DNA of 64,000 bases from Actinomycetes bacterium (lineage in GTDB: Bacteria > Actinomycetota > Acidimicrobiia > Acidimicrobiales > JAMCPL01): the NCBI GenBank assembly GCA_021816935.1, contig JAKAWR010000001.1:248001-312000 (forward strand), written 5' to 3'. The notes beneath the pieces are model-generated. The model was not told the origin of the DNA, made no database searches, and saw only the letters and a list, made by a program, of their open reading frames with translations. A program made the translations under genes and the position numbers. This document shows positions 34,373-47,392 of the stretch, piece after piece; within the stretch, counting starts at the first letter, position 1, and each line of letters opens with the position of its first letter.

Positions 34373-36895
34373 TTGACCATGAGATCCTCCAGGTCGCAAG
34401 CTGCCCGGTTCGCCGCGCCGCTGAGGGCACTCCAGTTGCCTGGCCGAACATGCACCAAGTCGGCACGGCTCGCCGGACGGTACGTGATGTCCGCCGTACC
34501 GCTGCTAGCGCTCCTGGCGGGAGGCGTTATCGCGAGCGCAGCCGGCACTGCCCGTTTGACCACCCCCTCCCCCGTGGCGTCCGCTTCCAGGTCGCAAGCA
34601 TACTGGTCCGGCCTCTCGCCGGTAGACACCATTACAGGACCAACAGGGCTGACCGGGGTATCGTGTCCGACCACCACCTTCTGCATGGCGGTAGACGGCG
34701 GAGGCAATGCAGTTATCTGGGCCATGTCATCATCGAATCCTCCGATGGCCATCGACGAAGGACAGGCGATCACGTCGGTCTCCTGCGCCACTGCGGCGTT
34801 CTGCGCCGCAGGTGATCATGCGGGGAATATCCTCATGTGGACCGGGAGTTCCTGGGCAGCTCCGCAGGCCGTGGACCCGGACGCCGGACCATTCGGACTT
34901 ACCTCGATATCCTGCTCCTCGCCATCGTTCTGCGTGGCTGCCGACGGCAACGGCAACGTAACCTACTGGAACGGCACCGCTTGGACTGCTCCCCGATCCC
35001 TCGACCCCGGCCACGGAAGCCTGCACGTTGCCTGCGGACCTCGACACGTCTGCGCGCTCGCCGACAACAGCGGGTACGCAGCTATTTTCAACGGCCAGGC
35101 GTGGGGACCCCTCGATAGCATCGATCCCGGAGGCACTCCCGTCTCTGTCTCGTGCTCCGGGACTGCTTCCTGTCTGGTAGCCGGATATTTTGGCCATGTA
35201 GAGACCTATGACGGCACCTCGTGGTCCGCTCCCCGGGAGATCGACCCAGCCGGATTCGACCTCACCGTCTCCTGCCCGCTCCCCTACGCCTGCTACGCCG
35301 TTGACGCCGCGGGTAACGCCCTTTCCTGGAACGGCGTTACCTGGTCGAAGCCGGCTTCGGTGGACCCGAACCGCCTTGAGGCCGTCTCGTGTGCAACGCA
35401 ATATTTCTGCATGGCAGTGGACTCGGCTGGAGATGCCCTTACCTACGATGCGCCTGTAGGCCCGAGCCTCTCCTCGCTCTCTCCCGCCTCAGGTCCGCTA
35501 ACAGGTACAACAACGGTCACGATAACGGGCAAAGGGCTTTCGGGAGCTACATCTGTAGATTTCGGCAGCGTTCCAGCGAAGAGCTTCACGGTCGTATCAC
35601 CCGAAGAGATCCAGGCACAGAGCCCTGCCGGCACAGCAGGCGAGGTACCTGTTGTCGTGAGCACGCCTTCGGGAAGCTCCTCTCCGGCCATGTACTGCGG
35701 AGACGCCTTCTACTACGGGGGGGCTCTGCCATCTCCCGTCTCGGGACCCCTTACCACGATGGCCCCTCTTCGCATAACAGACACACGCACGGGCTCTTCC
35801 TATCCGAAGGCAGGCCATGCCATAGATTCGTGCTCCACTCTTGATGTGGCCGTCCAGGGTGTGGGGAACATCCCCTCATCTTCTGTTGGCGCAGTCGTTG
35901 CGAACGTGACCGTCGTCTCGCCTACAGCCGCAGGGTACCTTACTTTGTATCCGAAAGGCTCTATACGCCCACTTGCCTCGGCTATCAACTTCACCTACGG
36001 AGAAACCGTGGCAAACAGGGTGGAGGTCCCACTCGATCCCGCAACCGGTGAGATATCTGTCTACAACGGATCTGACGGATCGGTGAACGTGGTGATCGAC
36101 GTAGAGGGCTACGTCCTTTCACAATCAGCCACAGGGTCCTACTACAACCCGGTTAACCCGCTGCGTATCTGCGACACGCGGGCCAACAACCCCTCCACGC
36201 TCAACGGAGCCTACGCCCAGTGCAACGCAAAGACCCTCTCTCCGGGAAATCCTCTTACAGTTCAGGTATCCTCCCTCGGGACCATCCCGACCGGTGCAAC
36301 GGCGGTAGAGGTGACCCTCACCGCAACAAACGGGGCCTCTTCGGGCTACCTCAGCGCCTACCCGGCAGGACAGAGCCCGCCCACGTCTTCGGACCTCAAC
36401 TTCGCAATAGGAGAGACCATTGCGAACAGCGCCTCTGTAGAGTTGTCTCCGACGGGAACGATGGACCTCGTCTCCAACGCTAGAACAGACGTCATCGTAG
36501 ACGTGGAGGGCTACTACGCGTCGGTGGGCAAGAGTCTCGAGATCGTATCCCCGGTGCGCCTTGCAGATACGAGACCGGGATCGGGAGAGCCTTACGCAGG
36601 AAAGACCCTTTCCGGCGGTTCCTCGCTCATAGTCCAGGTGGCAGGGGCTTCCGTGCCGCAGGGAGCCGTTGCAGCCGCTGTGAACCTCACCATTGTGGGC
36701 ACGAACTACGACGGCTACATGACCGCCTATCCACCAGGCTCACCTGTGCCTACCGCATCCAATGTGAACTGGTACGCGGGGACGAACATATCCGCGCTTG
36801 CGACACCAAAGCTCTCCTCGTCAGGTGGCCTCGCACTCTATGACGCTATCGGGCAGGCAAACGTCATAGTCGACCTGGAGGCATTCTACGATTGA
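34373..36895 (+). CDS. Secreted protein: 7 propeller-like repeats + IPT/TIG + three GYLTAYP-type repeats (paralog 1)
   Basis: Seven ~40-aa units of form VSCxxxxFCxAVDxxGNAxxWNGxxWxxPxxxDP, then TIG-like SLSPASGPLTGTTTVTITGKGLSG, then three LADTRPGSG units. Confidence 0.8.
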   Translation: MTMRSSRSQAARFAAPLRALQLPGRTCTKSARLAGRYVMSAVPLLALLAGGVIASAAGTARLTTPSPVASASRSQAYWSGLSPVDTITGPTGLTGVSCPTTTFCMAVDGGGNAVIWAMSSSNPPMAIDEGQAITSVSCATAAFCAAGDHAGNILMWTGSSWAAPQAVDPDAGPFGLTSISCSSPSFCVAADGNGNVTYWNGTAWTAPRSLDPGHGSLHVACGPRHVCALADNSGYAAIFNGQAWGPLDSIDPGGTPVSVSCSGTASCLVAGYFGHVETYDGTSWSAPREIDPAGFDLTVSCPLPYACYAVDAAGNALSWNGVTWSKPASVDPNRLEAVSCATQYFCMAVDSAGDALTYDAPVGPSLSSLSPASGPLTGTTTVTITGKGLSGATSVDFGSVPAKSFTVVSPEEIQAQSPAGTAGEVPVVVSTPSGSSSPAMYCGDAFYYGGALPSPVSGPLTTMAPLRITDTRTGSSYPKAGHAIDSCSTLDVAVQGVGNIPSSSVGAVVANVTVVSPTAAGYLTLYPKGSIRPLASAINFTYGETVANRVEVPLDPATGEISVYNGSDGSVNVVIDVEGYVLSQSATGSYYNPVNPLRICDTRANNPSTLNGAYAQCNAKTLSPGNPLTVQVSSLGTIPTGATAVEVTLTATNGASSGYLSAYPAGQSPPTSSDLNFAIGETIANSASVELSPTGTMDLVSNARTDVIVDVEGYYASVGKSLEIVSPVRLADTRPGSGEPYAGKTLSGGSSLIVQVAGASVPQGAVAAAVNLTIVGTNYDGYMTAYPPGSPVPTASNVNWYAGTNISALATPKLSSSGGLALYDAIGQANVIVDLEAFYD

Positions 36896-36959
36896 GGACA
36901 TCCGGTGAACGTCCGAGAGGAAGGAATGGCGAAGCACGATCGGTTTCGGTCCGCTGGAC
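35263..36959 (+). repeat. 1697-bp direct repeat, copy 1
   Basis: Offset of 2893 bp to copy at 38156-39852; reads as identical, including about 64 bp past the stop codon. Confidence 0.93.
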
Positions 36960-37162: not shown

Positions 37163-37267
37163 GGCCTCAGCGGATGTGGAAGTTGGATGAGACGGTCCGC
37201 TGTACCGTCGAAAGGAAGGAGTGGCGAAGTGCTACTTCGCCCAGGGCTCCATGTCCGCTGAGGCTCT
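37163..37267 (+). repeat. Dispersed palindromic repeat, copy B
   Basis: GCCTCAGCGGATGTGGAAGTTGGATGAGACGGTCCGCTG...TCCGCTGAGGCTCT; overlaps annotated start of the ORF at 37221. Confidence 0.75.
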
Positions 37268-39788
37268 TGAGCTGCACAGAACGGGAGGCGCCACGCTAAG
37301 AGCGAGAACGACAAGACCGGTTGCACGAATGCTCACCCTCGGCGGAGTCATCGCAGGCAGCGTTGCCCTTGTCGTCGGGGGGCAGGCACTCGCCGTCAGG
37401 GGGGAGTTCGCGGCCGCCGGACGGCCAGTCGCTACGCAGGCCCAGCCGGCGCCAGCAAGTCTGGCAACCGCTCAACCAAGCGGCATTTCGGGATCGTGGA
37501 CGCCGCCGGAGCCGATCGACAGCTCAGCGGGAACCTACGGCTTGACGGGAGTCTCCTGCCCGGCAAGCAGCTTTTGCGCGGCGGTCGACGGAAATGGCAA
37601 CGCTCTGAACTGGAACGGCGTCGCTTGGTCCCGCCCTTCCGCGATCGACCCCAGTGCCGCCCTGACTGCTGTCAGCTGCACCGGGCAAGGCTTCTGTGCC
37701 GCCGTCGACGATCACGGCAGCGCCTTTATGTGGAACGGCCGCACCTGGTCCGGCCCGATTGAGCTCGGCCCGCCGGGGACCTACCTGACCGCGCTGTCCT
37801 GCTCCTCGCCCTCGTTCTGCATCGCGGCCGACACCTACGGCGACGGCTTCAAGTGGTCGGGTGCCGCCTGGTTCACCCTTGGCAGTATCGACTCCGCCTA
37901 CGTCTCCGCCGTCTCCTGCACCAGCACGTCGTTCTGCCAGGCCGTCGATACGGGAGGAAGCGCCTCGACGTGGAACGGATATGCGTTCTCCTCGCCCTCA
38001 GCCGTCTATCCCAACTCGGGCTTCGCCAGCGTCTCCTGCTCGCAGTTCAACACTTGCATGGCCCTGACGGCAACCGGAGCCTACGTCCCATACAACGGCA
38101 ACAACTGGGAAAGCCCCGGTGCCGCAGATTCGGGTAATACGCTGTACCCGCCAACCACCGTCTCCTGCCCGCTCCCCTACGCCTGCTACGCCGTTGACGC
38201 CGCGGGTAACGCCCTTTCCTGGAACGGCGTTACCTGGTCGAAGCCGGCTTCGGTGGACCCGAACCGCCTTGAGGCCGTCTCGTGTGCAACGCAATATTTC
38301 TGCATGGCAGTGGACTCGGCTGGAGATGCCCTTACCTACGATGCGCCTGTAGGCCCGAGCCTCTCCTCGCTCTCTCCCGCCTCAGGTCCGCTAACAGGTA
38401 CAACAACGGTCACGATAACGGGCAAAGGGCTTTCGGGAGCTACATCTGTAGATTTCGGCAGCGTTCCAGCGAAGAGCTTCACGGTCGTATCACCCGAAGA
38501 GATCCAGGCACAGAGCCCTGCCGGCACAGCAGGCGAGGTACCTGTTGTCGTGAGCACGCCTTCGGGAAGCTCCTCTCCGGCCATGTACTGCGGAGACGCC
38601 TTCTACTACGGGGGGGCTCTGCCATCTCCCGTCTCGGGACCCCTTACCACGATGGCCCCTCTTCGCATAACAGACACACGCACGGGCTCTTCCTATCCGA
38701 AGGCAGGCCATGCCATAGATTCGTGCTCCACTCTTGATGTGGCCGTCCAGGGTGTGGGGAACATCCCCTCATCTTCTGTTGGCGCAGTCGTTGCGAACGT
38801 GACCGTCGTCTCGCCTACAGCCGCAGGGTACCTTACTTTGTATCCGAAAGGCTCTATACGCCCACTTGCCTCGGCTATCAACTTCACCTACGGAGAAACC
38901 GTGGCAAACAGGGTGGAGGTCCCACTCGATCCCGCAACCGGTGAGATATCTGTCTACAACGGATCTGACGGATCGGTGAACGTGGTGATCGACGTAGAGG
39001 GCTACGTCCTTTCACAATCAGCCACAGGGTCCTACTACAACCCGGTTAACCCGCTGCGTATCTGCGACACGCGGGCCAACAACCCCTCCACGCTCAACGG
39101 AGCCTACGCCCAGTGCAACGCAAAGACCCTCTCTCCGGGAAATCCTCTTACAGTTCAGGTATCCTCCCTCGGGACCATCCCGACCGGTGCAACGGCGGTA
39201 GAGGTGACCCTCACCGCAACAAACGGGGCCTCTTCGGGCTACCTCAGCGCCTACCCGGCAGGACAGAGCCCGCCCACGTCTTCGGACCTCAACTTCGCAA
39301 TAGGAGAGACCATTGCGAACAGCGCCTCTGTAGAGTTGTCTCCGACGGGAACGATGGACCTCGTCTCCAACGCTAGAACAGACGTCATCGTAGACGTGGA
39401 GGGCTACTACGCGTCGGTGGGCAAGAGTCTCGAGATCGTATCCCCGGTGCGCCTTGCAGATACGAGACCGGGATCGGGAGAGCCTTACGCAGGAAAGACC
39501 CTTTCCGGCGGTTCCTCGCTCATAGTCCAGGTGGCAGGGGCTTCCGTGCCGCAGGGAGCCGTTGCAGCCGCTGTGAACCTCACCATTGTGGGCACGAACT
39601 ACGACGGCTACATGACCGCCTATCCACCAGGCTCACCTGTGCCTACCGCATCCAATGTGAACTGGTACGCGGGGACGAACATATCCGCGCTTGCGACACC
39701 AAAGCTCTCCTCGTCAGGTGGCCTCGCACTCTATGACGCTATCGGGCAGGCAAACGTCATAGTCGACCTGGAGGCATTCTACGATTGA
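37221..39788 (+). CDS. Secreted protein: 7 propeller-like repeats + IPT/TIG + three GYLTAYP-type repeats (paralog 2)
   Basis: C-terminal part identical to paralog 1; divergent N-terminal blades; signal-like MLTLGGVIAGSVALVVGGQALAV suggests real start may lie downstream of 37221. Confidence 0.78.
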   Translation: MAKCYFAQGSMSAEALELHRTGGATLRARTTRPVARMLTLGGVIAGSVALVVGGQALAVRGEFAAAGRPVATQAQPAPASLATAQPSGISGSWTPPEPIDSSAGTYGLTGVSCPASSFCAAVDGNGNALNWNGVAWSRPSAIDPSAALTAVSCTGQGFCAAVDDHGSAFMWNGRTWSGPIELGPPGTYLTALSCSSPSFCIAADTYGDGFKWSGAAWFTLGSIDSAYVSAVSCTSTSFCQAVDTGGSASTWNGYAFSSPSAVYPNSGFASVSCSQFNTCMALTATGAYVPYNGNNWESPGAADSGNTLYPPTTVSCPLPYACYAVDAAGNALSWNGVTWSKPASVDPNRLEAVSCATQYFCMAVDSAGDALTYDAPVGPSLSSLSPASGPLTGTTTVTITGKGLSGATSVDFGSVPAKSFTVVSPEEIQAQSPAGTAGEVPVVVSTPSGSSSPAMYCGDAFYYGGALPSPVSGPLTTMAPLRITDTRTGSSYPKAGHAIDSCSTLDVAVQGVGNIPSSSVGAVVANVTVVSPTAAGYLTLYPKGSIRPLASAINFTYGETVANRVEVPLDPATGEISVYNGSDGSVNVVIDVEGYVLSQSATGSYYNPVNPLRICDTRANNPSTLNGAYAQCNAKTLSPGNPLTVQVSSLGTIPTGATAVEVTLTATNGASSGYLSAYPAGQSPPTSSDLNFAIGETIANSASVELSPTGTMDLVSNARTDVIVDVEGYYASVGKSLEIVSPVRLADTRPGSGEPYAGKTLSGGSSLIVQVAGASVPQGAVAAAVNLTIVGTNYDGYMTAYPPGSPVPTASNVNWYAGTNISALATPKLSSSGGLALYDAIGQANVIVDLEAFYD

Positions 39789-39852
39789 GGACATCCGGTG
39801 AACGTCCGAGAGGAAGGAATGGCGAAGCACGATCGGTTTCGGTCCGCTGGAC
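38156..39852 (+). repeat. 1697-bp direct repeat, copy 2
   Basis: See copy 1; ends 6 bp before the plsC-like stop codon. Confidence 0.93.
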
Positions 39853-39857
39853 CGCTG

Positions 39858-40796
39858 TCAGTCTTTCCAGGGCGAGCGTCCCGCGCTCCGCCGCTCGACA
39901 CCCTCTCCCTCGCGACTCCGGCATACCCGCGTAGCCGGCGGGCGACTCGCAGCAGGCAGGCTCCATGCTCTCCGCCACTCTGACGCATCGGGGCCGAGTG
40001 GGGTGGGTGTGGTGTCGCTGCCGGCCCGCCGTGCGGCTGCCCACCAGTCGGACTGCGACTCGTCCGCAAGCTTCGCCACCTCGGCAAAGATCCGGTCGGC
40101 AAGCCGCCTTGCGTCCTCACCTTGCCGATGCTCGAGCGGTCGCCCGAAAAGAACCCTGACGCTACCTCGTCGCAGTCCCTGACCTCCCTTGGGCAGCATG
40201 GCGTAGGTGCCCGAGAGGTAGGCGGGGACAACCGGACGGCCAGTGTGCTCTGCGACGTACGCGGCACCTCCCCGCATCTCCTGCATCCATCCATCCGGCG
40301 TCCTGCCGCCCTCCGGGAAGACAAGCAAGTTCCAGCCCTCCCGCACGAGGCGCACCGCAAGCTCGGCAGACGAACGGTTGGCCTTCCTGCGCTCGAGCGG
40401 GATGGCCCCCAGGCTGAACGCGAAGAGATGGGCCTTCCACGTCCGATCGAAGAAATAGTCCGCGGCGGCGGCAACGCACGTCCTGTCCCTCATCGCCCTC
40501 GGGAGCACGCTGAGAAGCAGCGGCGTGTCCAGATGACTCGAATGGTTCGCGACCAGGATTACCGGCTCATCGACCAGATCAAGTACCTCTGCGCCCACCA
40601 CATCCGGAGATGCCGCCAGCCGGAACGCCGGTGACACCACCGAGTCCATGAGGACGGACCTCGCGAATCGCGCAGGCTTCTCCCTGGCCCACGAAGGGTC
40701 GTAATCGACACCTACGTTCCGTGTAGGCACGAGGCGTGCAACGCCGGTGGGCCAATGGGCCCTGCTGAACGGGAACGGCCGGCTGCTACTCGACAT
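39858..40796 (-). CDS. 1-acylglycerol-3-phosphate acyltransferase-like (PlsC family)
   Basis: VILVANHSSHLDTPLLLSVLP (HxxxxD), LLVFPEGGRTPDG, VVPAYLSGTYAMLPKG. Confidence 0.87.
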   Translation of the reverse strand: MSSSSRPFPFSRAHWPTGVARLVPTRNVGVDYDPSWAREKPARFARSVLMDSVVSPAFRLAASPDVVGAEVLDLVDEPVILVANHSSHLDTPLLLSVLPRAMRDRTCVAAAADYFFDRTWKAHLFAFSLGAIPLERRKANRSSAELAVRLVREGWNLLVFPEGGRTPDGWMQEMRGGAAYVAEHTGRPVVPAYLSGTYAMLPKGGQGLRRGSVRVLFGRPLEHRQGEDARRLADRIFAEVAKLADESQSDWWAAARRAGSDTTPTPLGPDASEWRRAWSLPAASRPPATRVCRSREGEGVERRSAGRSPWKD

Positions 40797-42375
40797 CGGC
40801 CATCACAAGCGGTGGCACGCGCATGTGGGTGATCGTAGGCTCCCGCCCGACAACGTCCTCCGCCATCTCGAGCGCGTCCTCCAGGGTAGATGCCGCCTTG
40901 AAACCCAAGCGCCGCACCGCCCTGCGGTCGCCGCCCACCACGATTACCGCCCCGAGATGGTCCAGGGCATGCGCGCACCAGTACCACATGTAGAAGGGAT
41001 GGACCCCATGGTAAGCGTGGCCCTTGCGGTACAGCTGGCGGTACCACGGGTCGGTGGCATAGGCCTCCTCGTACTTCACGACCTGGACCGGATCGGTTGT
41101 CTCGGCTAGCACCTCCTCGAAGAAGTCGATATAACTCGGGTGATGCCCCGCATGAAAAGCCCATGGGGTGGGGTGTCGCACGATAACAACTCCCCCCTCC
41201 CGCACGACCGGCCGGCCGCGGTACATGTTGAAGAAGTAACCGAGGCTCATTACCGCCACCAGTATCGGGTTCATGATCGAATCGACGTTGTAGGGTCCGA
41301 TATAAGGAAGCCCTATTGTGAGAATGTCGGTCTGGCCCTCGACCCGGACCAGCTGCTGTGCAAAAACGTTGGCCAGCGTCGCCTCATGGACAGCCTCCAC
41401 CTCGCCTGCCTGCACCGACGTCATCTGATGTGGCGCCCGGATCGAATGAAGGATTGCTCGCTTGGCACGATCGCCCAGCACCGACAATCCCCTCGACGCC
41501 GCGACAAACGACGCCCGGTCCCGCACCCTCCATTCCCACTCCCGCTTCTGCAGGAAAGCGAACTGTTGGGGGAACGTGTTCGTATTGAGGGTCGTCTCGA
41601 TCTGGAACACCTTCACGCCGCTCTCTCGAATCAACCGCCCCATGCGCCAGTTGGACGAGTGCAGCTCCGAATGGTGCATGTCCATGAACGACCGGCTCGC
41701 CAGCATCGTGGCCGGGTTGTGGTGGTGCCTAACGCTCCTGTAGCTTGCGAGGCCCGTCGCCACGCTCTTGTGCCCCCCGTCCATTGGGACAAGATTGATG
41801 TTGACGTAGACCAGGAGGTCAGACTCGGCTGCCCGTCTGGATATCTCGACCTCTTCGCCCTGGTCGGTCTTTCCGATGAAGGCGAGAGCTTCCTGATCCT
41901 CCGCATCATGCTGCAACAGGTGCCCGCTCGGGGCAAACGCCTCGTAAATCCTCTGGCCCAGCGCATGTCTCAGTTCTGCCTCCGTCATCCGCCTGTGCAG
42001 GCTGAGTGCGGCGATGATCACGACATCGTCCACCCCGGCCTGCGCGGCCATGTCAAGCACCTCCTCGATCACCAGCTGGCGATTGTCGGGCGCCTGCATC
42101 GGTGGCAGGGGCAGCGATACGTCGTCGAATGCGATTGTAAGGCGCATATCCGGCCGCAACAACGTGGGGAGCGGATCGCAGCCCCCCAGGGGATGGAGAA
42201 GTGCATCCCGAACCGCTTCGACCGGATCGACCAGCGGTTCCAGTGGATCAGGTGGGTAGATCACCCTGCTGCGCTCCGCCGGCAATGACTCCAGGAGTAA
42301 TCCCTCGCCATTCCAGAACAGCACCGGGGGCGTTGAACGTTCCACAGGCAGGACGAAGCCGGGTCGCGGGCTCAT
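40786..42375 (-). CDS. LarA-like / DUF2088 family protein
   Basis: MRLTIAFDDVSLPLPPMQAPDNRQLVIEEVLDMAAQAGVDDVVIIAALSLHRRMTEAELRHALG; INLVPMDGGHKSVATGLASYRSVRHHH. Confidence 0.72.
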   Translation of the reverse strand: MSPRPGFVLPVERSTPPVLFWNGEGLLLESLPAERSRVIYPPDPLEPLVDPVEAVRDALLHPLGGCDPLPTLLRPDMRLTIAFDDVSLPLPPMQAPDNRQLVIEEVLDMAAQAGVDDVVIIAALSLHRRMTEAELRHALGQRIYEAFAPSGHLLQHDAEDQEALAFIGKTDQGEEVEISRRAAESDLLVYVNINLVPMDGGHKSVATGLASYRSVRHHHNPATMLASRSFMDMHHSELHSSNWRMGRLIRESGVKVFQIETTLNTNTFPQQFAFLQKREWEWRVRDRASFVAASRGLSVLGDRAKRAILHSIRAPHQMTSVQAGEVEAVHEATLANVFAQQLVRVEGQTDILTIGLPYIGPYNVDSIMNPILVAVMSLGYFFNMYRGRPVVREGGVVIVRHPTPWAFHAGHHPSYIDFFEEVLAETTDPVQVVKYEEAYATDPWYRQLYRKGHAYHGVHPFYMWYWCAHALDHLGAVIVVGGDRRAVRRLGFKAASTLEDALEMAEDVVGREPTITHMRVPPLVMADVE

Positions 42376-43712
42376 CGGACTTCTCCTTTCCCCGGCACGA
42401 TGGCGGCCACCTCGGCGTGCAGGCTCCCCCCGGAGCTCCCAGCACCCGCCTTGTCCCTTCCTGCCGCCATGTTCCCACCCGAGCGCGCCGGCCGGCTGGG
42501 GCGTGCCTGCGGGTTGAACACGATCTTCACAGCTCCCCTCGAACCAGCCGTAGCTGCGTGCATGACAGCCTCCTCATAGCGCTCGAGAGGGTACGCGGCC
42601 GTTACGAGCCGTCCCAGCTTCAGCCTGCCCGCCAGCTCGATGGCGAGCTCGAAAGTCCGTACCCTACCGCGGGGAACGTCCTCTACTCCATAGGTATAGC
42701 TACCGGTTATGGAAAGCTCCCTATGCCACACGGAGGGGAAGTCGAGCGACATCCTGGCAGGCATTCCCACAAGGACCAGCCTGCCTCGCGGCCTCAGCAG
42801 GGACAGCGACTGCAGGATCGAACCCCTGGACGCCACGCAGTCAAAGACAACGTCTGCGCCACTCACGACATCGCCCCCGACCAGGTGCGAGTGACTCTTC
42901 CGCCGCACCGCCCGCGCAAGCTCTTCGCGACCGCCGGCCTCGTCTGCCCCCAGCTCGACTGCAAACCGCTTCTGATGCGGATACTTCGCGCCCGCAAGAA
43001 TGCTTCCCACCGGTGTCAGCTCCCGCACCGCGGCAATTGTGAGCAGTCCCAGGGTGCCGGCACCAACTACAGCGACGTTCTCTCCTTCCTGCACCTTTGC
43101 CAGAAGTGCCCCGTGGACGGCACACGCCGCGGGCTCGACGATCACGGCATCGGTATCGTCCATACCGGCTGGGATCGCGTGGAGCTGGCTTGCGTGAGCG
43201 ACCAGCGGCGCTGCCGACCAGCCGCCCCCCGTGCTCTTGCAATAGCCGGTCATGAGGCCCGGCTCGATGTGGCCGTGAGTCGTGCTCAGGCACAGGCCCG
43301 TATCACCTGCAGCGCAACTCTCGCATTTCGGGTCAAGCCCCCTGGCAGCGCACTGGAGAACAGGCTCTACAACCACGCGCTCCCCGTCCTGCAACGGGGA
43401 GCGCCCCGGTATCGCTACGCCGCCAGCCGAAGACAGCGTACCGACGATCTCGTGACCCGGCACGAACGGGAAGCTCATGTAAGGCTCGAAGTGCCTGGAT
43501 CCCGTCCCGTCGAGCAGGGAAAGGTCCGAACCGCAGATACCGGACAGCAGCGGCGCGACCTCGACCCAACCCTCGCCGGGGAGCCGAGGCGTTTCTATGT
43601 CGGTAAGGCGGAGCGGCGCCATCGACACTCCCCTACCCGATCCTGCAGCCAGCGTGGCCAGCCGGGACGCGGCTATCCGCGGAATGCTCCTTTCGAACAC
43701 CAGCGCCTTCAC
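42372..43712 (-). CDS. Zinc-binding medium-chain alcohol dehydrogenase
   Basis: LSGICGSDLSLLDG, FVPGHEIVGTL, CxxCxxxxxxxC cluster CESCAAGDTGLC, VVGAGTLGLLTIAAV. Confidence 0.88.
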   Translation of the reverse strand: MKALVFERSIPRIAASRLATLAAGSGRGVSMAPLRLTDIETPRLPGEGWVEVAPLLSGICGSDLSLLDGTGSRHFEPYMSFPFVPGHEIVGTLSSAGGVAIPGRSPLQDGERVVVEPVLQCAARGLDPKCESCAAGDTGLCLSTTHGHIEPGLMTGYCKSTGGGWSAAPLVAHASQLHAIPAGMDDTDAVIVEPAACAVHGALLAKVQEGENVAVVGAGTLGLLTIAAVRELTPVGSILAGAKYPHQKRFAVELGADEAGGREELARAVRRKSHSHLVGGDVVSGADVVFDCVASRGSILQSLSLLRPRGRLVLVGMPARMSLDFPSVWHRELSITGSYTYGVEDVPRGRVRTFELAIELAGRLKLGRLVTAAYPLERYEEAVMHAATAGSRGAVKIVFNPQARPSRPARSGGNMAAGRDKAGAGSSGGSLHAEVAAIVPGKGEVR

Positions 43713-46522
43713 TACCGGCCTCGCTCCGGTCCTCCAGGGGTGTCGCCGGCTCGACCCTGACCGCCTGGTTGGCTTGGCCCGCCACCTCGGCCCAGGCCGC
43801 TTGGGGTACGGCTCCGGCCGACCCGCAACGTGCCCCCGGCCTCCAATGTTGCCACGGCCTTCAGTCCTCGCTGCACTGCTGCAGTATAGAGCCTCCGCAC
43901 CCTCTCCGAACGGATCCCACTACCGGCACGACCCGACGTTCCCCGCTTCGCCGCAGGCCGTCGGAGCGAGCCGAGCGCACCGGTGCTGCCGTCGGAACCG
44001 GCCAGCCCACCTGCGGCCAGCAAGTCGATGGCCCGCCGGACGGCCTCGGGGCGTAGCCGCCGTCCTCCCGCAAGCGGTGCCGTCGCCAACCAGGGTGCCC
44101 CGGGCGCCCCCATCTTCCACGTTTCGGTATGCCAGCCTCTCTTCGACGCTACCGCCGCGAGCCGTTGATCACCGTTCACCACCACGGGATAGCCGACAGC
44201 CTCCAGCAACGGCAAATCCGACACCGAGTCTGCGTACGCGACAGCTTCTGATAGCTCGATGCCGCGTTCGCGCGCGTACTCAGCGACGAGCAACGCTCGG
44301 GCCTCGCCAATCGGCGGTATGCCCGTGAGCCTTCCGTTGTACCGCTGCACCGTGGCACCGTTTCCGGCCACATCCTCCAGCTGAAGCCCCGCCGAAATAA
44401 CGTCATCGAAAAGAACACGGAGAGGCTCCACAACGAAATCTAGCGCCCCCGTAACGAGCAACGTCCGCTGACCCATCTCGCGGTGTTTGCGCACTCTGGC
44501 GATCCCGGCCGGGTACGACCTCTCTAGCAGGTGCTGGTGGAAGAGCTCCCATGACCCCCTTTGCATCTCGGCAACTCGCGCGCCGTCGTAGCTGCGATAG
44601 AACGCCCTCAGGAAGTCTCCCCGGTCCCGCTTGTCCAGCAGCCACAGGCGCGGCGCCTGCATCGCCAGCCGTGCGATGAAACGCATCCTCTCCGGAGCGT
44701 CGAGAGACTGGCCGGCAAGCCAGACGTAGGCGTCGATTACATTGGAGGCGATGAGTGTGCCCTCCCAGTCGAACACCACGAGCTTTCGCTCCGGCGACAA
44801 CACCGCCCTGGTCGCCCTATCTCGCCTGCGCGACGCCCTCGAACGCTCCGGCGTTGTCTTCGCCCGTGCATGCGTAACCACGGACGGCAGGTGCACCTCA
44901 CTCACGTAGCTCGCCCAATCGATAACCAACGGATCGAACCTGAGCTGCCGCCTGTCCTCCGGATCCAGGCTCTCATAAAGGCTCATCAGCCGAGAGACGT
45001 CGAAGACCGCCTCCGTCTCGGTATACGATCCGTACAGTTCGGCATACGACAGAGCACGCATCGCCAGGCCACGCCGATCCAGTATCCGGGAGCGGAGGTC
45101 GCCTACGCCGCGGACCGGCACCGAGCCGAGCAGGCGATCCGCAGCCCCGAGCCAGGTCACGTAGCGCCGCAGCTGTCCCTGTACCTCGCCGTGTCCCGGG
45201 AAGGACCACTGCGGGACCTGTATCGGCTGGCCCTGCTCGTCGTAGAGGGGGTGCTCCGAAAACCAGTCCCTCACCATCTCGAAAAGCCTGCTGTAGCGCA
45301 ACGGGTTGCGGGATCCCGTCGCGACGTGGATCACGACAGGATGTCCTGGTACCGGGCCGCTATACGTAGAGCCGCCTGCACTCCGGTCGGAGCCGTCGGC
45401 GTCTCTCGTCCCATGCGCCGCCACCGCAAGGAGCGCCGAAACGACCATGTCCACCGGCACCACGTCGATAACGCCTTCGGCGATGCCGGGAAACTCGCGC
45501 AGCAGACCCCGTGCATAGGAGATGATGATCGGCTCCGCCATCCGGAATCCCCGTATCCAGCCCGGGTAAGGTTCTTCCAGCGCCGATTCGATAATGGAGG
45601 GACGCACGATACTGATCGGGAGGTCCGTGTGATCGGCGGCGAGCACCCTCTCGCCCAGAGCTTTTGTGAACGCATAACCGTCAGGCCAGCCGAGTGACTG
45701 CGCTCTTGCACGACCCGCGTCGACAAGTGACCGCTTGACCCAATCCTGGCGAAACCGCTCCGCCCTTTCGGCAATGACGTGCATGCCGGCCGACCCCAGC
45801 TCCCGGCGGGCCTCCTTACTGAAGCCCTGCAGCCGGACCGGAGAGCGCGACTGCGCCTCGAGATCACTCCGAACGCGGCGCGCCGCCGCAATCTCCGCGT
45901 CGATGTCGACCTCTGTCGTAACCGTGGTGTGGGTCCGGGCGGCCTTCGTCTCCCGGATCGCATCGGCCCAGAGGATTTCTTCAGCTCGCCCCTGATGGGT
46001 TCCCGCTACGTAGGCGGTGGACACTGCAATCAGGTGAGGAAGCTCGATGCCCGACTGCGGACGGGCACCCGCCTCCAGCGCCTTAGTGATCGCCCCGGCC
46101 ACCCGGCCCGGACCCAGCAGGTTGACCTCGATTGCCCCATCGAGCGGCGAATCGAACGCTACGGCCGCCGCCGAATGGATCGCAATATCGCAGGAGCCGA
46201 GTATTTCCAGCGCCTCCGGTTCCAGGCCCAGCCCGTCCCGGGAAACATCGCCAGCGACGACCTGGACTCGATCTGCAACCAGGGCATCGAAGGCGCCTCC
46301 CAGCTCCGATCGCAGCCTGTCGTAACAGTCGTTCCTGAAGATCTCCCGCTCCGCTCTGACCGCCGCGCTGGTCCGCTGGCCGCTCCGCACCAGCAGCACA
46401 AGCTCCACGTCCGGCACGGTCCGCAGGAACCGTTCGACCAAAGCCGTCCCCAGGAAACCCGTCCCCCCGGTGATGAAGATGCGCTTGCCGCTGAGGCTCT
46501 CCGCTATTCGCTTACTCACCAC
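43712..46522 (-). CDS. Fatty acyl reductase-like SDR fused to HAD-IB phosphatase domain
   Basis: IFITGGTGFLGTALVERFL, YAFTKALGERVL, SIVRPSIIESALEEPYPGWI; C-terminal VVFDWEGTLIASNVIDAY...YADSVSDLPLLEAVGYPVVVNGD. Confidence 0.82.
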   Translation of the reverse strand: MVSKRIAESLSGKRIFITGGTGFLGTALVERFLRTVPDVELVLLVRSGQRTSAAVRAEREIFRNDCYDRLRSELGGAFDALVADRVQVVAGDVSRDGLGLEPEALEILGSCDIAIHSAAAVAFDSPLDGAIEVNLLGPGRVAGAITKALEAGARPQSGIELPHLIAVSTAYVAGTHQGRAEEILWADAIRETKAARTHTTVTTEVDIDAEIAAARRVRSDLEAQSRSPVRLQGFSKEARRELGSAGMHVIAERAERFRQDWVKRSLVDAGRARAQSLGWPDGYAFTKALGERVLAADHTDLPISIVRPSIIESALEEPYPGWIRGFRMAEPIIISYARGLLREFPGIAEGVIDVVPVDMVVSALLAVAAHGTRDADGSDRSAGGSTYSGPVPGHPVVIHVATGSRNPLRYSRLFEMVRDWFSEHPLYDEQGQPIQVPQWSFPGHGEVQGQLRRYVTWLGAADRLLGSVPVRGVGDLRSRILDRRGLAMRALSYAELYGSYTETEAVFDVSRLMSLYESLDPEDRRQLRFDPLVIDWASYVSEVHLPSVVTHARAKTTPERSRASRRRDRATRAVLSPERKLVVFDWEGTLIASNVIDAYVWLAGQSLDAPERMRFIARLAMQAPRLWLLDKRDRGDFLRAFYRSYDGARVAEMQRGSWELFHQHLLERSYPAGIARVRKHREMGQRTLLVTGALDFVVEPLRVLFDDVISAGLQLEDVAGNGATVQRYNGRLTGIPPIGEARALLVAEYARERGIELSEAVAYADSVSDLPLLEAVGYPVVVNGDQRLAAVASKRGWHTETWKMGAPGAPWLATAPLAGGRRLRPEAVRRAIDLLAAGGLAGSDGSTGALGSLRRPAAKRGTSGRAGSGIRSERVRRLYTAAVQRGLKAVATLEAGGTLRVGRSRTPSGLGRGGGPSQPGGQGRAGDTPGGPERGR

Positions 46523-46558: not shown

Positions 46559-47392
46559 TTATTCGCTGGGCCTCTTTGCGCTCTTGCCGCTCTGAGGTCC
46601 GGCTTTGCGGCGCACCTTCGGCGGTGTGTAGCGCTTGGACGCAGCAGGAGTCTCGCGTGATACGGGCGCCGGAGCCGAGTCGTTCGTACGGCCTCTGCCG
46701 AATAGCCAGCGCCGGCCTGTCCCCCCTTCACCGCCTCTTCGTTCTCCGCTGCCGGCCTTGGTGGCATTGCCGGAGCTCCGAGACCCCGACGCCTGCCTCA
46801 GCGGCATACCAAGCGCCTTCTCTGCCTCCCTCTGGAGCTTCATCGTCCTCCAGATCAGCCAGCCGCCGAACACGAAAAACGGGATGGCAAGCAGCAGCGT
46901 TAACCCTCCGAATGCGAAACCGGCGAAAAGTGCGGCGAATGCCAGCAACGCCCGCCGCCTGATCCAGGCGCCTGCAAAGATGACGCCGGCAAGAACGAGC
47001 CCTACAGTCAGGTAGATTGCAACCTCGCTGACGTCAGTGCGGTTCTTGCCGTGCGTTACCGGATGGACAAGGTACGGGATGGTGATCGACAGCCACACAA
47101 TGGCAGCTAATGCAGCCACCAGGAAGCCGTAACGCCGTTCCCGGTCCTCGAGGGTGTTGACCACGCGCCGGACCGTCTTGGCATCGAGGGGTTGGCGCCC
47201 GGAAGCGCCGGCTGGACCCGAACCGTTCGCGCCGGTCACCTTCCCGGCGCCTGCCGGCTTGCCGTGGCGAGCCGGTTCACCACCGCTCACGGGCTCGCTG
47301 CTGCGGCCAGCCTTGCCTTGCCCGGCTGGATCCTCCTCGCCGTTACTCTCGCCCCTGACTCGGCCATTGGTGCCGTTCCTTGCCTCGAACAC
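46559..47392 (-). CDS. Hypothetical membrane protein
   Basis: Central TM segments flanked by low-complexity basic regions. Confidence 0.6.
   Translation of the reverse strand: MFEARNGTNGRVRGESNGEEDPAGQGKAGRSSEPVSGGEPARHGKPAGAGKVTGANGSGPAGASGRQPLDAKTVRRVVNTLEDRERRYGFLVAALAAIVWLSITIPYLVHPVTHGKNRTDVSEVAIYLTVGLVLAGVIFAGAWIRRRALLAFAALFAGFAFGGLTLLLAIPFFVFGGWLIWRTMKLQREAEKALGMPLRQASGSRSSGNATKAGSGERRGGEGGTGRRWLFGRGRTNDSAPAPVSRETPAASKRYTPPKVRRKAGPQSGKSAKRPSE

Follow-up and report, generated by a model that had tools for sequence, protein, structure and literature searches.

Organization of the Operon

The window, a stretch of 64,000 nucleotides from an Actinomycetes bacterium of the order Acidimicrobiales (GenBank assembly GCA_021816935.1, contig JAKAWR010000001.1, positions 248,001 to 312,000), was found to contain four overlapping genes on the minus strand, in which a gene for a LarA-like protein lies among genes for a fatty acyl-CoA reductase (FAR), an alcohol dehydrogenase (ADH) and an acyltransferase. 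An earlier note, made from the letters of the window, had read these genes as the operon of a dedicated lipid pathway. In our study, the four open reading frames (ORFs) were confirmed exactly as claimed there, at 46522–43712, 43712–42372, 42375–40786, and 40796–39858. Consecutive ORFs share 1, 4, and 11 bp, respectively, and the ATGA overlap was read directly in the sequence. The four genes are a translationally coupled operon of the order FAR-HAD, zinc ADH, LarA-like, and PlsC-like, and the gene families named in the earlier note were borne out by the Pfam matches of their products.

43712–46522, minus strand: FAR-HAD fusion, 936 aa, with NAD_binding_4 (181 bits) and HAD (85 bits) of Pfam in one protein
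42372–43712, minus strand: zinc-dependent medium-chain ADH, 446 aa, with ADH_N and ADH_zinc_N of Pfam
40786–42375, minus strand: predicted LarA-like nickel-pincer-nucleotide (NPN) enzyme, 529 aa, with Lar_N (PF09861, 132 bits) and NF052592
39858–40796, minus strand: PlsC-like acyltransferase, 312 aa, with Acyltransferase (PF01553, 75 bits)

The FAR-HAD protein contained the NAD_binding_4 domain at aa 17–363 and the HAD-IB phosphatase domain at aa 582–774, with a weak match to the FAR C-terminal domain at aa 491–543. The top PDB match of the FAR part was 7eoz, a fatty acyl-CoA reductase (226 bits, about 550 aa aligned), and the Rossmann motifs were present, GxxGxxG as GGTGFLG at aa 19–25 and YxxxK as the conserved Y283..K287. 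Residue conservation was counted phylum-wide over 60 LarA-like and 56 FAR-HAD sequences. The HAD nucleophile D585 was invariant (56/56), and its motif was DxE in 45 sequences and DxD in 11. For the ADH, the nearest NCBIfam families were scyllo-inosose 3-dehydrogenase and L-threonine dehydrogenase, with all scores far below cut-off. The PlsC-like protein contained an NHxxHxD motif at N84–D90, and FPEGG replaced FPEGT. The PlsC motifs HxxxxD (H85..D90) and EGxR (E162, G163..R165) were conserved, PDB 5kym, a 1-acyl-glycerol-3-phosphate acyltransferase, was matched at 55 bits, and the substrate specificity is predicted from the family.

Conservation of the Gene Set

The sample of the order comprised 99 genomes, and 41 loci of the order (that of the window and 40 others) were read. 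FAR-HAD and the LarA gene were co-linear in all 41 loci, the ADH gene was present in 35 and the PlsC gene in 40. The LarA-like family NF052592 (LarAH14/15/16) was found in 88 of the 99 genomes and FAR-HAD in 87; both were present in 86 genomes, LarA without FAR-HAD in 2, FAR-HAD without LarA in 1, and neither in 10 (Fisher p = 5e-11). In the order, LarA and FAR-HAD come and go as a pair, and FAR-HAD is the obligate partner of the LarA-like gene.

Class-level and phylum-level searches found the LarA-like family outside the order as well, and FAR-HAD, ADH, and LarA occurred together in 15 loci of other Actinomycetota lineages, including Rubrobacter. The synteny of FAR-HAD and LarA is far beyond chance. 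Divergent relatives of LarA (L196–L200; about 40% of aligned columns identical, scores below the family cut-off) were found outside the operon context, and the lipid linkage is therefore confined to the LarAH14/15/16 family. In the order, a Ddl-family gene recurred as a same-strand neighbour upstream of FAR-HAD, in 14 loci (e.g., L036, L037, L045, L046, L055, and L068), and MurF was found nearby in 8.

Family and Active Site of the LarA-Like Protein

The LarA-like protein matched NF052592 at 860.5 bits (cut-off 740) over positions 1–520 of 520. As a full-length match above the cut-off it shows no family-level difference from LarAH14/15/16, the family of LarAH14 of Frankia sp. (PMC7583248); what is added to that family here is the operon context and the phylum-wide conservation. 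In NCBI it bears the putative name "hydroxyacid isomerase." The predicted structure (pLDDT 78.9, pTM 0.82) matched 18 chains of known LarA-type structures at E ≤ 1.1e-21 in Foldseek, and the best PDB match was 9q3k, a single-histidine LarA, with a TM of 0.80 on the target. Profile alignment with the LarA of L. plantarum placed the following residues.

41995–41997, minus strand: H127, corresponding to catalytic His108 (60/60)
41794–41796, minus strand: N194, aligned with or beside the second catalytic histidine, His174 (Asn in 58/60), a correspondence that carries a one-residue alignment shift
41767–41769, minus strand: K203, corresponding to Lys184, which is covalently joined to the cofactor (60/60)
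41719–41721, minus strand: H219, corresponding to nickel-ligand His200 (60/60)

D84, which aligns with Asp72, was likewise invariant (60/60), and about 130 positions were nearly invariant across the phylum. The carboxylate-binding Arg75/Arg73 position was occupied by S87 (Ser in 56/60, substituted by C or T in the others). The protein thus shares with L. plantarum LarA (PDB 5huq) the fold, the NPN-binding Lys184 and His200, catalytic His108, and Asp72, whereas His174 and Arg75 are missing, the C-terminal domain is unrecognised by sequence, and the gene context is unrelated to lactate. The nearest solved structures were LarA_Bw and LarA_Sp (PDB 9q3j and 9q2u/9q3k; PMC12611868), at 155 bits by sequence. 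These single-histidine enzymes also carry Asn in place of His, and the equivalents of their Lys, nickel-ligand His, active-site Tyr307 (Y362), and His401 (H459) are retained in our protein. They differ from it by an identity of about 24%, by the change of His306 to P361 and of Lys76 to S87, and by genes that adjoin sugar-metabolism genes, whereas the gene in the window adjoins lipid genes.

In known racemases the Arg binds both the carboxylate of the substrate and the phosphate of NPN (PMC12611868), and its replacement by Ser suggests a substrate without that carboxylate. A previous study reported that LarAH14 of Frankia sp. was inactive on all hydroxy-acid substrates tested, and its authors considered that LarAH groups without these residues may perform another hydride-mediated reaction (PMC7583248). 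The "LarAH15" of Phytophthora is a gluconate epimerase in PMC11770544, so the LarAH numbers may differ in meaning from those of PMC7583248. Judged by its sequence and predicted structure, the protein of the window has a LarA fold and is not a standard racemase, the second His and the Arg being replaced. We know of no reaction for LarAH groups without the second histidine.

Supply of the Nickel-Pincer Cofactor

The maturation genes larB, larC, and larE (larBCE) were not found within the 64-kb window, as the earlier note had stated. The genome contained larB and larC adjacent to each other (G000:C7:469–2581) and larE on G000:C17, all above the NCBIfam cut-offs. In two lineages outside the class (L193 and L183), larC, larB, and larE were found directly downstream of PlsC. 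Among the 99 genomes, LarA and LarC were both present in 80, LarA alone in 8, LarC alone in 3, and neither in 8 (p = 1e-5). With larBCE in the genome, and beside the operon in two relatives, it is very probable that the LarA-like protein works with the nickel-pincer cofactor.

The earlier note had named, as grounds to give up its reading, a loss of synteny in relatives or an absence of LarA catalytic residues combined with a genome devoid of larBCE. FAR-HAD/LarA synteny was kept in 41 of 41 loci of the order and in 15 elsewhere in the phylum, and all three lar genes were found. In the active site the Lys, the nickel-ligand His, and one catalytic His were kept; the second catalytic His is indeed absent.

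Lipid Context of the Operon

The Rubrobacter assignment of the relatives' genomes rests on plasmids identical to records of R. radiotolerans and R. tropicus. The Rubrobacter clusters contained no PlsC, and a PlsY-type glycerol-3-phosphate acyltransferase (PF02660) adjoined FAR-HAD in five of the six loci, the sixth being cut at that end. The FAR of the operon was the only strong FAR-type reductase in the genome of Rubrobacter G395. Mixed ether/ester lipids are reported to dominate in Rubrobacterales (Sinninghe Damste 2023, cited in PMC11150832). In some Rubrobacter, further genes were found between ADH and LarA, namely a MOSC protein with a MarR regulator and a protoglobin in L187 (10016–11894) and a MOSC protein in L190 (7855–8547); these are not conserved and were set aside.

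A homologue of alkyl-dihydroxyacetone-phosphate synthase (alkyl-DHAP synthase, AGPS; PDB 2uuu, 228 bits) was found in the genome of the window at G000:C3:32532–34322, on the contig of the operon and about 258 kb away. It was present in 36 of the 99 genomes of the order, 34 of which bear the operon. In 7 of these 34, from 6 families, it lay on the same strand 0.7–4.4 kb upstream of FAR-HAD; the chance estimate for this proximity was 4e-11, which ignores shared ancestry. Among the 88 operon-bearing genomes, the synthase was found within 4.4 kb in 7, elsewhere in 27 (that of the window included), and not at all in 54. Neither Rubrobacter G395 nor G367 yielded an alkyl-DHAP synthase, the three FAD-oxidase proteins of each genome being unlike it. 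The AGPS pathway also requires a FAR-made fatty alcohol and acyltransferases; its synthase lies outside the operon of the window and is missing in most genomes that bear the operon, and no LarA-like step occurs in the classical pathway.

The glycerol ester reductase (Ger/PlsA) and ElbD routes to bacterial ether lipids (PMC11150832, PMC11868695) share the probable product class with the operon. The Ger/PlsA marker DUF2229 (PF09989) was absent in 10 of the 10 genomes tested, Rubrobacter included. ElbD is a polyketide-synthase-like enzyme.

Proposed Pathway and Alternatives

We propose that the operon makes a glycerolipid derived from a fatty alcohol, most likely an alkyl-ether (mixed ether/ester) lipid, with a LarA hydride step on a glycerol-derived intermediate, and we assign this reading a probability of roughly 0.42. 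By family assignment only, FAR would convert acyl-CoA to a long-chain alcohol. The PlsC-like protein, or the PlsY-type protein in Rubrobacter, would acylate a backbone of the glycerol-phosphate type, the HAD domain would take the phosphate off a pathway intermediate, and the ADH, which is dispensable in 6 genomes, may interconvert an alcohol/carbonyl pair of the pathway. The LarA-like protein would hold the nickel-pincer nucleotide via K203 and H219, with H127 as the single acid/base. It would shift a hydride either between hydroxyl and carbonyl groups of a glycerol-derived lipid intermediate or off one such group and onto it again, with no racemisation of a 2-hydroxy acid; a hydride transfer by NPN on a non-carboxylate substrate is what we infer for it. 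Where it is encoded, alkyl-DHAP synthase would form the ether bond. The ether-type lipid is the best-supported product class and not a proven one.

Several observations weigh against this proposal. The organism of the window is an uncultured member of the Acidimicrobiales, and no substrate is known for the LarAH14/15/16 family. Eight LarA-positive genomes of the order (G017, G022, G024, G031, G035, G039, G050, and G052) gave no LarC match; incomplete assembly explains only part of these, and incomplete assemblies or another nickel-insertion route may be the cause. Alkyl-DHAP synthase did not track the operon (both in 34 genomes, operon alone in 54, synthase alone in 2, neither in 9; p = 0.32), by which it was rejected as an obligate partner. 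Given this and its distance of 258 kb here, the genome does not compel an ether product.

The earlier note had pointed out that LarA-type enzymes act on 2-hydroxy acids and had listed a hydroxy-lipid among the possible products. In a pathway of that kind, LarA would fix the configuration of a 2-hydroxy acid, either free or as an acyl group, FAR would reduce it to a 1,2-diol, and PlsC would acylate the diol. Members of the LarA superfamily do use 2-hydroxy acids (PMC7583248), and FAR and PlsC share the operon with LarA. The second catalytic His and the carboxylate-binding Arg are lost, the Frankia member was inactive on such acids, and the PlsY substitution in Rubrobacter points to glycerol phosphate, so that we regard a hydroxy-lipid as unlikely. 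The dedicated lipid operon with a LarA-like step stood up through synteny, co-occurrence, larBCE, and the nearby alkyl-DHAP synthase, the 2-hydroxy-acid substrate found no such support, and among the products considered in the earlier note the ether type has more independent support.

It is doubtful, yet conceivable, that the ether bond is made or enabled by the LarA-like enzyme itself. In such a reaction the C2 hydride of a 1-acyl-glycerol(-phosphate) would pass to the nickel-pincer cofactor and leave a transient ketone, which would let the acyl group depart from C1 and the alcohol from FAR take its place, in the manner of S-adenosylhomocysteine hydrolase with NAD. The same hydride would then go back to the same face, for which one catalytic histidine would be enough. 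As 34 genomes have both alkyl-DHAP synthase and LarA, LarA is not simply a replacement of the synthase; Rubrobacter seemingly lacks the synthase, and LarA might carry the ether step there.

We consider it improbable that the product is a wax ester or alkyl ester, in which FAR would supply the fatty alcohol, the PlsC-like enzyme would esterify it and no ether bond would be made. The FAR domain is present and the PlsC-like family is generally known to include enzymes with other acceptors, but PlsY, a user of glycerol phosphate, replaces PlsC in Rubrobacter, alkyl-DHAP synthase is a neighbour in 7 genomes, and LarA and HAD would be left without a role. It is very improbable that the LarA-like protein is a non-catalytic, structural or regulatory subunit of a lipid complex: it lacks one catalytic His and the conserved Arg, but the NPN-attachment Lys, the nickel-ligand His, the catalytic His, and about 130 positions in total are nearly invariant across the phylum, and larBCE adjoin the operon in two genomes. 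Equally remote is a LarA that gives a D-hydroxy acid (e.g., D-lactate) for cell-wall precursors, as in L. plantarum, with the lipid genes as mere neighbours; this role, suggested by the Ddl and MurF genes, was rejected because the best-scoring Ddl proteins are D-Ala-D-Ala and not D-Ala-D-Lac ligases and occur sporadically (14 of 61 loci, none near the operon of the window), while FAR-HAD is the obligate partner of LarA and His174 is missing.

Neighbouring Features

Two further features were found beside the operon.

46559–47392, minus strand: ORF of 277 aa on the strand of FAR-HAD, 36 bp upstream of it
35263–36959 and 38156–39852: perfect direct repeat of 1697 bp, ending a few bases from the PlsC-like gene

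The 277-aa ORF is a possible first gene of the operon transcript; it gave no match in the Pfam search and was not among the clusters conserved near the operons of relatives. The repeat links two tandem secreted-looking proteins (34373–36895 and 37221–39788) with identical C-terminal halves and a TIG domain in the second, and points to duplication or gene conversion in the very recent past, or else to an artefact of assembly.

Significance

Literature searches that paired DUF2088 with an acyltransferase, the lactate racemase domain with lipids, or HAD-IB with FAR gave no relevant paper, no description of a nickel-pincer enzyme in lipid synthesis was found in the literature searched, and a search of plasmid records for named carriers gave only ordinary LarA. 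Part of the operon context may already be on record, in the supplementary data of PMC7583248 or in the lipid paper on Rubrobacterales, which reportedly mentions a putative operon for 1-O-alkyl glycerol phosphate. Our results point to an undescribed nickel-dependent step in the making of a special, probably ether-type, membrane lipid in many branches of Actinomycetota. They place one single-histidine LarAH group in a strong functional context, namely a lipid operon that much of the phylum retains, and Rubrobacter is a cultured model that bears it. If the LarA-like enzyme does make or enable the ether bond, this would be an oxygen-tolerant route to bacterial ether lipids that is independent of alkyl-DHAP synthase, and would put the nickel-pincer cofactor to a non-isomerase use for the first time. 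The cofactor is tied here to membrane-lipid synthesis, the first such link as far as we found, and the operon is a candidate for the unexplained ether lipids of aerobic actinobacteria.

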